Of a stretch of 64,000 bases of DNA, positions 1 to 8,781 are shown in pieces (position 1 is the first letter of the stretch; each line of letters starts with the position of its first letter). The notes below the pieces were generated by a model that searched no databases, was not told the DNA's origin, and saw only the letters and a program-made list of their open reading frames with translations. The position numbers and the translations under genes are program-made. The stretch is from Ricordea florida (lineage: Eukaryota; Cnidaria; Anthozoa; Corallimorpharia; Ricordeidae): the NCBI GenBank assembly GCA_949710005.1, contig OX453272.1, positions 45,406,146-45,470,145 of the forward strand, in the 5' to 3' direction.

Positions 1-108
1 TATGGTGGTGCTTTGGATGTTGATAAACGCAAACGGTACAAGAAGTTACTCGAGAGTGAAAAATACGCCAGACTTTGCTTTTCACTGCGCCACCCGTTTG
101 AAAAATAA
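1..108 (+). CDS. C-terminal end of an unidentified element protein (partial)
   Basis: The frame is open from the first base of the window to a TAA at 106-108. It encodes the last 35 residues of a protein whose start lies beyond the left edge. The tail is rich in Lys and Arg (DKRKRYKKLLESEKYAR) and ends in HPFEK. It lies 29 bases upstream of the next gene in the same direction, so it probably belongs to the same array. The fragment is too short to assign. The missing part could carry a replication or packaging function, but nothing visible here shows that. Confidence 0.5.
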   Translation, partial: YGGALDVDKRKRYKKLLESEKYARLCFSLRHPFEK

Positions 109-137
109 TAAGAGATACCCGCATCTGGGGCATAAAC

Positions 138-734
138 ATGGCTAACCCTGAAGATATATTGAACGGTGAAGCATCAGTTGCTGAAACAACACCAATCATT
201 GATTTGGAGTCAAAGAGGGAATCTCTTTCAATCTTGGCGTGCCTAGGTTCAACGAAAGAATACACGGGTGTGGTTATGGACCTCTCTGACACAACCAAAC
301 TATCAGATAAGGATGTGGAGAAGTATTACAAAAGGTACCAAATAGTGTCCGGCAAGAAGATTGCCGATGGCTTGGCGGACTCTTCTTTTCAATTGATAGC
401 TAAGGCTGTGGATCGAGGTTTGAGCAAGTTCGGAAATATAGATGATCAAGACGCTCTTGTGAGAGACTGTAAGAACGATGAATTGATAATGAAGGAGATC
501 TCAAATATATCCGGATTACTTGTACTCAAAGGTGGAAGACTCACGGCATTACTTTCGGCATTTATTCAATTTGCAAAGCACTTCAAGTTAAGAGAGCAAG
601 ACCTAAGCACTACTCCAACACAACTTGAGCAAGACCTAAGCACTACTCCAACACAACTTGAGCAAGACCTAAGCAATACTCCAACACAACTTGAGCAAGA
701 CCTGAGCACTACTCCGACACAACTTGAGGACTAA
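138..734 (+). CDS. Uncharacterised element protein with four C-terminal 11-residue repeats
   Basis: This 198-residue protein starts at an ATG in the context CATAAACATGG. I recognise no catalytic motif. Residues 1-30 are acidic and Ser/Thr-rich. Residues about 50-150 form a globular helical region with motifs such as SDKDVEKYYKRYQ and SGLLVLKGGRLTALLSAF; the latter is hydrophobic but too polar to be a sure membrane span. The last 45 residues are four near-identical copies of EQDLSTTPTQL followed by ED, encoded by a 33-base tandem repeat. The neighbouring genes run in the same direction. A structural or scaffold role is possible but unproven. My memory is of similar multi-copy, unnamed proteins in invertebrate genomes; this was not checked. 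Confidence 0.75.
   Translation: MANPEDILNGEASVAETTPIIDLESKRESLSILACLGSTKEYTGVVMDLSDTTKLSDKDVEKYYKRYQIVSGKKIADGLADSSFQLIAKAVDRGLSKFGNIDDQDALVRDCKNDELIMKEISNISGLLVLKGGRLTALLSAFIQFAKHFKLREQDLSTTPTQLEQDLSTTPTQLEQDLSNTPTQLEQDLSTTPTQLED
594..725 (+). repeat. 33-base in-frame tandem repeat, four copies
   Basis: Four back-to-back 33-base units (594-626, 627-659, 660-692, 693-725) lie in frame at the end of the preceding gene and end just before its stop. They differ at only a few bases, for example Thr to Asn in the third copy and silent changes in the fourth, so the expansion is recent. Confidence 0.95.
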
Positions 735-794
735 AATGGATTCTAGGAAAAGTGTCTTCAAGATTGGTTGTACCATAAGCAAAAGCACAAAAAG

Positions 795-1445
795 ATGCAA
801 CAAAACGAACTTGAGTTTCACGTATTTACCATATATGGTGAGAATGACTCTGACTTTGAGAAGTTCTTCGAGAGAGTAAGACCAGAGATTGTTAATGCCT
901 TCGAGTTAATCAACCCTAGTTTCACAAGACTTGAAGTTAATTTCAAGCTAGACCCGGATCGACAACCATATAAACAACCATATCAATCCATAGTAGACCA
1001 TTATGATGATGAGACTGACTCTGCAGATACGCTGATCGCGCGTACTGTGAGAGTTTTGAGAGCGAGATTGAGATATAATTTGAGGGATAAACTTCAACCC
1101 GTTTTTCGTTATAGTTACAAGGACATCTACGATAGACGGTTTGATGAATCTATTAACCACGAGGAGAGATTCAGAGCAATGGACAATGGGGATTGGGATG
1201 GGGAAGAGGGTTTGGAAGATACTGCTATGTATGGCTTTGTGGTCAAGGACTTTGCAAAAGATATGGAGTCTGAAGTTTCACACATTACAATCAAAATGTT
1301 GAATGCATACAAGCACTACCATAAATCGAACTTCTACAAACATCTGTGGGATGAACTAATGCCTATAGCGTGGCACCCCGATCGTGTGTGGGATTGGTGC
1401 TTCGATAACGAGCAAAAGAGAGAAGCCGAGCAATTATGGGCGTAA
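795..1445 (+). CDS. Uncharacterised element protein with a C-terminal Trp-rich motif
   Basis: The frame is open from about 768. The first ATG in it is at 795, which gives 216 residues, and I use that start. The protein is highly charged. It begins with a beta-like segment (ELEFHVFTIYGENDSDF), has an Asp/Arg-rich middle, and ends in AWHPDRVWDWCFDNEQKREA. A short Trp/His/Cys motif of this kind recurs at the ends of unrelated viral proteins in my memory, but I cannot name a family. No membrane segment is seen. The next gene begins 73 bases after the stop, behind a perfect stem-loop. An ATG at 736 opens a different frame that closes after 47 codons, so I did not use it. Confidence 0.7.
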   Translation: MQQNELEFHVFTIYGENDSDFEKFFERVRPEIVNAFELINPSFTRLEVNFKLDPDRQPYKQPYQSIVDHYDDETDSADTLIARTVRVLRARLRYNLRDKLQPVFRYSYKDIYDRRFDESINHEERFRAMDNGDWDGEEGLEDTAMYGFVVKDFAKDMESEVSHITIKMLNAYKHYHKSNFYKHLWDELMPIAWHPDRVWDWCFDNEQKREAEQLWA

Positions 1446-8058: not shown

Positions 8059-8074
8059 TGGACTCGATATAATT

Positions 8075-8099
8075 TTTGTAACGTGGTTCGCGTTACAAA
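8075..8099. terminator. Perfect 9-bp stem-loop between convergent genes
   Basis: The arms at 8075-8083 and 8091-8099 pair perfectly around a 7-base loop. The hairpin lies 17 bases after the + strand gene ending at 8058 and 17 bases from the end of the - strand gene at 8116, so it could serve both transcripts. Function is inferred from position and from the similar hairpins upstream. Confidence 0.6.
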
Positions 8100-8115
8100 G
8101 ATGCATACTATATTA

Positions 8116-8781
8116 TTATAACTTAATAAGATTGCGGCAATCTTTACAATGCTGTTTTTGTTTATAATGTTCGCATATGCCCTTTCCCCCACACTCTTTA
8201 CATCTATACCTATTTTTACCATGAGAACATACTTGGGACCCACCACAATCTTTGCAATAGTACTTATTCTTGCCATGAGTACATATACCCTTACCACCAC
8301 ACTCTTTGCAAAATGCTCTCTGTCTTAGATGAGGGCATATTTGTGATCCCATACAATCCTTACACTGAAGCTTACGTTTGTAATGAACGCATATGCCCTT
8401 TCCCCCACACTCTTTGCATCTGTACCTACTTTTACCATGAGAACATACTTGGGACCCACCACAATCTTTACAATAGTACTTTACTTTACCATGAGTACAT
8501 ATACCCTTACCACCACACTCTTTGCAAAATGCTTTCTGTCTTAGATGAGGGCATATTTGTGATCCCATACAATCCTTACACTGAACCTTACGTATACCAT
8601 GTTGACATTTCCCTCCACTACTAGCACTAGGTACCTCCTCAGGCATTCCCAGCGCCTCTAGTAACTCGTCTCTACGCATCATATAATACTTGGCTATCTT
8701 GCGTTCCTTGGCAATGGCGCGGAGCTCTTTGACAGTTTGATTTTCATTTGGCATGATGAGTTCTTGGATGTATAATAACAT
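8116..8781 (-). CDS. SAP-like domain plus nine Cys-His repeats, probable zinc-binding DNA/RNA-interacting protein
   Basis: The product has 221 residues; an ATG at 8754 would remove the first nine. Residues about 16-44 (TVKELRAIAKERKIAKYY) match the helix-turn-helix of SAP/Rho-N-type nucleic-acid-binding domains. From residue 58 onward come nine units of about 18 residues, each C-x-H ... C-x2-C, with spacers such as GGSQVCSHGK and GGKGIC; the four ligands per unit suggest zinc binding. Repeats of this type occur in proteins of large eukaryotic DNA viruses and algae. It is the only - strand gene of the array and faces the others across a shared hairpin. An internal 216-base duplication (four units) is seen. 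Confidence 0.8.
   Translation of the reverse strand: MLLYIQELIMPNENQTVKELRAIAKERKIAKYYMMRRDELLEALGMPEEVPSASSGGKCQHGIRKVQCKDCMGSQICPHLRQKAFCKECGGKGICTHGKVKYYCKDCGGSQVCSHGKSRYRCKECGGKGICVHYKRKLQCKDCMGSQICPHLRQRAFCKECGGKGICTHGKNKYYCKDCGGSQVCSHGKNRYRCKECGGKGICEHYKQKQHCKDCRNLIKL
8160..8590. repeat. 216-base tandem duplication inside the Cys-His gene
   Basis: Two copies about 216 bases apart (for example CGCATATGC at 8172 and 8388) are mostly identical and stay in frame, doubling a block of four Cys-His units. The remaining differences are single bases. Confidence 0.85.

Follow-up and report, generated by a model that had tools for sequence, protein, structure and literature searches.

The compact gene array at positions 138-8781 of the analyzed window belongs to an element of 16,369 bp, of which it forms the right half. 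With a probability of about 0.9, we read this element as an integrated, multi-copy DNA provirus of the Polinton type that would spread by self-copying, packaging into a capsid and reinsertion via its own predicted integrase. The window comprises 64,000 nucleotides (C1:45406146-45470145) of a 538-Mb host assembly of 48 contigs. The rest of the element was found by an ORF and Pfam profile scan in the 10 kb of host contig directly left of the window. Coordinates given as L009:n refer to that stretch.

Ends and gene content of the element

The left end of the element is located 7.5 kb before the window and the right end at position 8885. Both ends are formed by inverted terminal repeats of 270 bp (L009:2517-2786 and 8616-8885), which are 97.8% identical, begin with AGTAGTT and are flanked by ACGTG. 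The latter represents the 5-bp target duplication (L009:2512-2516 and 8886-8890). Additionally, the terminal repeats extend into both terminal genes, which have a SAP-like start in common (62 residues, 84% identical) and then diverge.

The left half carries the hallmark genes. At the left end of the element a Rho_N/SAP-like protein of 388 aa is encoded, the start of which lies inside the left terminal repeat. An 842-aa protein matched Endonuclease_7 (E 2.3e-5, 24.6 bits, cut-off 23.6). It contains EVDMMYP, NNSVFGKTMEN and FTDTDS in this order, which we take to be the PolB motifs A, B and C according to the consensus. No Pfam polymerase family matched the protein; based on the three PolB-like motifs we infer a polymerase. 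A further gene of 276 aa matched PHROG 20431 (E 8e-9). The integrase gene is located on the minus strand, and its rve match (E 2.7e-7, 31.2 bits) was slightly below the cut-off of 32.6; a PHROG transposase match (E 1.2e-6) lends support to it. Asp 137 and Glu 172, 35 residues apart, were assigned by eye as putative catalytic residues.

The predicted major capsid protein (411 aa; L009:8257-9492) matched Capsid_N slightly above the cut-off of 24 (E 1.4e-5, 25.2 bits) and had no PDB match by sequence. Its gene adjoins that of an A32-type packaging ATPase, spanning from L009:9506 to window position 108. The part left of the window contained a Walker A motif and matched Pox_A32 (E 1.2e-11, 45 bits, cut-off 22.8), and the C-terminal end is the plus-strand open frame at 1-108, closed by two stops. 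Among the 19 element genes scanned no Pfam protease was recognised, although divergent proteases could escape such a scan. Furthermore, no D5 helicase, VLTF3 or RNA polymerase was recognised by Pfam in the 16-kb unit.

These results are largely in agreement with an earlier sequence-only reading of the window. It had proposed a virus-like, large mobile element with hallmark genes possibly located left of the window, and had advised extending the contig leftwards and searching for terminal repeats and target duplications. The extension revealed the left half with integrase, capsid, A32-type ATPase and PolB-like protein, together with the repeats and duplications described above. The extent of the array, given there as 1-8781, holds for the genes at 138-8781; however, bases 1-108 form the last part of a different gene, and the element continues to 8885.

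As had also been described, the array consists of about a dozen genes in one orientation and a single convergent gene, all of them intron-free. In total 13 genes were found: twelve plus-strand ORFs (138-8058) and one minus-strand ORF (8116-8781). Of bases 1-8781, 91% fall within ORFs of at least 65 aa. For 200 dinucleotide shuffles this share averaged 17% and did not exceed 33%, and in six equally long host blocks it was 11-36%. The intergenic gaps had been given as 9-110 bases but actually lie between an overlap of one base (g6/g7) and 144 bases (g9/g10).

The first ORFs are g1 (138-734; 198 aa, with four 11-aa repeats at the C-terminus), g2 (795-1445; 216 aa), g3 (1519-2469; described below) and g4 (2544-2768; 74 aa, weakly hydrophobic at the C-terminus). 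They are followed by g5 (2847-3299; 150 aa, membrane segment), g6 (3309-3539; 76 aa, possible membrane segment), g7 (3539-3736; 65 aa), g8 (3770-4174; 134 aa, membrane segment), g9 (4212-5162; 316 aa, at least two membrane segments), g10 (5307-5807; 166 aa) and g11 (5841-6443; 200 aa, membrane segments). The large protein and the SAP/Cys-His-repeat protein noticed earlier are g12 (6514-8058; 514 aa) and the convergent g13 (8116-8781; 221 aa). The latter combines a Rho_N/SAP-like start (Rho_N E 2.4e-6) with Cys-His repeats and begins inside the terminal repeat. The claim of at least six membrane products depends on the span used. With 15 residues, 6 of 13 products are reached; with 19 residues at a mean hydropathy of 1.5, only g5, g8, g9 and g11 remain (4 of 13), without g6 and g12.

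ORF 3 of the array (g3) encodes a predicted single-stranded-DNA-binding protein (SSB) with an acidic tail. Structure comparison pointed to a CP312R-like SSB fold. The best model match was the marseille-like LCMAC102 with 42% identity, and the other giant-virus models listed shared 8-19%. CP312R was absent from the best 50 matches in a plain Foldseek search of the PDB. Based on these models, g3 is predicted to belong to the Nucleocytoviricota-type (CP312R-like) SSB family.

The product of g12 is strongly conserved and has four conserved cysteines. For this protein 2116 homologues were found, 37 of which were aligned; the predicted structure model was poor and no phage match was obtained. A possible membrane anchor at the C-terminus is uncertain, since a mean hydropathy of at least 1.0 was reached near the C-terminus in only 40 of 105 full-length homologues.

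Intergenic hairpins, base composition and flanking DNA

Perfect hairpins were present in the gaps g2/g3 (1479-1505, plus strand, 11-bp stem), g3/g4 (2486-2512, plus strand, 11-bp stem) and g4/g5 (2792-2812, plus strand, 8-bp stem) as well as between the convergent g12 and g13 (8075-8099, 9-bp stem). Thus, four of the five perfect hairpins with stems of at least 8 bp in bases 1-8781 fall into gaps, which make up 8% of this stretch (p 0.0002). Shuffled sequences contained 0.8 such hairpins in the whole stretch. Stems of at least 9 bp occurred three times in the array versus 11 times in the 55 kb host part of the window. Since equally strong hairpins are found in host DNA as well, it is their position in the gaps that stands out. 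Mimiviruses are reported to end their transcripts at such palindromes (PMC4402537). By analogy, the hairpins of the array may mark transcript ends. The likeness consists in palindromic hairpins between genes; however, here only four gaps carry a stem of at least 8 bp.

The gaps before g4 and g5 (2486-2549 and 2789-2852) were 86% identical over 64 bases, including the hairpin and the start codon, a pattern suggestive of the duplication of a terminator-promoter cassette.

The array had a lower CpG value (0.64) and a higher TpG value (1.29) than the remaining window (0.89 and 1.08, respectively). CpGs across codon junctions numbered 102 compared to a mean of 162, which was below all 300 synonymous shuffles. 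Host exons followed the same trend, but more weakly (CpG 0.77; 50 junction CpGs versus 65, reached by 3 of 300 shuffles). CpG depletion and TpG excess of the kind seen in 1-8781 would be expected from methylation of integrated copies. At about 9 kb the CpG value changes stepwise, which is consistent with the right end of the element.

Several features were observed in the host DNA to the right. Exon-like ORFs on the minus strand (19357-20208, 27937-28455, 38292-39146, 48680-49141 and 56698-57507) carried ion-channel or ankyrin domains, with a TRPA1 match at 56698-57507 (E 5e-20), which suggests that TRPA1-like host genes are clustered here in tandem. At 12996-13424, direct and inverted repeats of 34-98 bp are nested within one another and probably represent a small foldback or MITE-like element. 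A 12-bp unit is repeated almost perfectly 29 times in tandem at 59074-59426.

Copies in the host genome

The genome search scored the best candidates only; copy counts are therefore lower bounds and biased to intact copies. At least 101 copies of the capsid gene were found (best 101 of 6126 candidates) with 91-100% identity, 8 of them with and 93 without a stop. For g3 there were at least 129 copies (best 129 of 782 candidates; 15 with a stop) and for g12 at least 84 (best 84 of 6028 candidates; 10 with a stop). The matches were spread over 16-17 contigs, with copies in contigs as long as 48.6 Mb. For 61 of the 84 scored g12 copies, a same-strand g3 copy lay 2-16 kb upstream (median distance 5.3 kb); only 2 were found in the wrong order or strand, and about 0.002 would be expected per copy. 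Bacterial contamination, the case that the sequence-only reading had named as refuting, is excluded by this distribution over many chromosomal sites with target duplications.

Predicted end stretches were taken for ten copies, including that of the window, and for an eleventh copy the right end only. Both ends were located in 8 of the 10 copies; for the remaining two (C1:28.56M and C2:2.40M) the stretch predicted to hold the left end contained no repeat. An exact 5-bp target duplication flanked each of the 8 two-ended copies, with eight different sequences. As a control, none of 56 mismatched end pairings gave a 5-bp duplication. The target duplication of the copy at C4:13.44M falls within a short tandem repeat, and at the right end of the copy at C3:11.75M the motif was present twice, the first one being used. 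The sizes of the 8 two-ended copies ranged from 15,944 to 17,103 bp, plus one of 20,302 bp (15.9-20.3 kb). In this largest copy (C3:32771103-32791404) the ends and the 5-bp duplication were intact. Here, g3 and g12 are about 9 kb apart, so an insertion of approximately 4 kb between them is likely.

Between copies, the median dN/dS was 0.11 for g12 (28 pairs, 0.07-0.20), 0.23 for the capsid (21 pairs, 0.14-0.46) and 0.44 for the SSB g3 (21 pairs, 0.18-1.07). Because these medians are below 1, selection seems to have acted on the genes of the element, including the capsid, during the spread of the copies.

The gene content suggests how such an element could work. Exact 5-bp duplications show that the target is cut with a 5-bp stagger, for which the integrase would be the cutter. 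The polymerase-like 842-aa protein might copy linear DNA, perhaps with protein priming at the terminal repeats; g3 is predicted by its SSB fold to coat single-stranded DNA during replication. Capsid and A32-type ATPase would package the DNA of the element. The SAP-like proteins presumably bind DNA, and the small membrane proteins together with g12 may serve an inner virion membrane or entry. Self-replication, packaging and reinsertion are thus the likely function, with particle formation being putative.

Relationship to known proviruses and alternative readings

Polinton/Maverick elements are usually about 15-20 kb long and have inverted terminal repeats and short target duplications. The analyzed element resembles these and the adintoviruses in its size of about 16 kb, in its inverted terminal repeats and short target duplications, and in encoding an rve-type integrase, a predicted capsid protein, an A32-type ATPase and a PolB-like protein. 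With the hallmark genes located in the left half, it is of the Polinton type and not a new kind of element, and its size, ends, integrase, capsid domain and ATPase most likely group it with the Polinton-type proviruses. However, the standard Polinton/Maverick set includes a protease and is not known to contain a giant-virus-type SSB or an endonuclease VII fusion, and Polinton target duplications are 6 bp. In contrast, the element carries such an SSB, its endonuclease VII is joined to the PolB-like protein, no protease was recognised, its SAP-like genes begin inside both terminal repeats and its target duplications are 5 bp. The conserved 514-aa protein and the intergenic hairpins are further departures from the standard set. 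The designation as undescribed in the sequence-only reading, made subject to the element not proving a standard, already named one, therefore stands only in part: the element is of the Polinton type, but with the SSB and no recognised protease it is not the plain standard set.

That it is nevertheless an ordinary member of the catalogued Maverick/Polintons or adintoviruses, with odd genes that are normal for cnidarian copies, fits its size, terminal repeats, integrase, capsid and ATPase. Bellas et al. 2023 report Polinton-supergroup capsid genes in Cnidaria, but outside the main Maverick-Polinton cluster (PMC10120064). This location makes us regard an ordinary member as rather doubtful, as do the SSB, the joining of endonuclease VII to the PolB-like protein and the lack of a recognised protease, which depart from the standard set. 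The reported counts of Endonuclease_7 genes (46 in Hydra viridissima, 9 in H. vulgaris) and DUF2738 genes (21 and 12, respectively) exceed those of the other cnidarians listed (PMC7642931). Together with the cnidarian capsid group of Bellas et al. 2023 (PMC10120064), they would fit the same lineage as our element. Among the titles and abstract starts of the open literature, searched for right-half features, no paper on the element was found.

An integrated giant-virus (Nucleocytoviricota) fragment would account for an SSB near that of a marseille-like giant virus, the Capsid_N and Pox_A32 domains and hairpins as in mimiviruses; giant-virus genes have been reported earlier in Hydra and Exaiptasia (PMC5294986). 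Still, we consider it highly improbable given the integrase, the defined ends and 5-bp duplications, and a bounded unit of about 16 kb recurring at many sites without further Pfam-recognised core genes. Compared with ASFV CP312R and the Nucleocytoviricota SSB family, the SSB here sits in a 16-kb provirus. More plausible, but unlikely, is a transposon that has put capsid-like genes to other use and makes no particles. In its favour, the copies are chromosomal; against this, purifying selection acts on capsid and g12 between copies, and a packaging-type ATPase is retained beside the capsid gene. Contamination by bacterial or other DNA, suggested by compact intron-free genes, is negligible in view of matches on 16-17 contigs of the assembly with target duplications and of g12 lacking a phage match.

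Within the preferred reading of a Polinton-type provirus, it is conceivable, though less likely than not, that the element represents a separate, still active animal lineage combining Polinton-style integration with giant-virus parts (SSB, perhaps capsid and hairpin-ended transcripts). Such a lineage might form membrane-containing virions with g12 as a new vertex or entry protein, and an exchange of the SSB might have taken place between it and marseille-like giant viruses of the sea.

Polintons are widely regarded as close to the base of several groups of eukaryotic DNA viruses. Of the animal copies known, most are old or broken. Here, one likely cnidarian genome contains numerous copies with intact genes and exact target duplications, and the median dN/dS values lie below 1. 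It thereby becomes possible to test the replication, packaging and insertion of a Polinton-type animal element in a living host. Furthermore, the giant-virus-type SSB would provide a direct sequence link between small integrated animal viruses and marine giant viruses.
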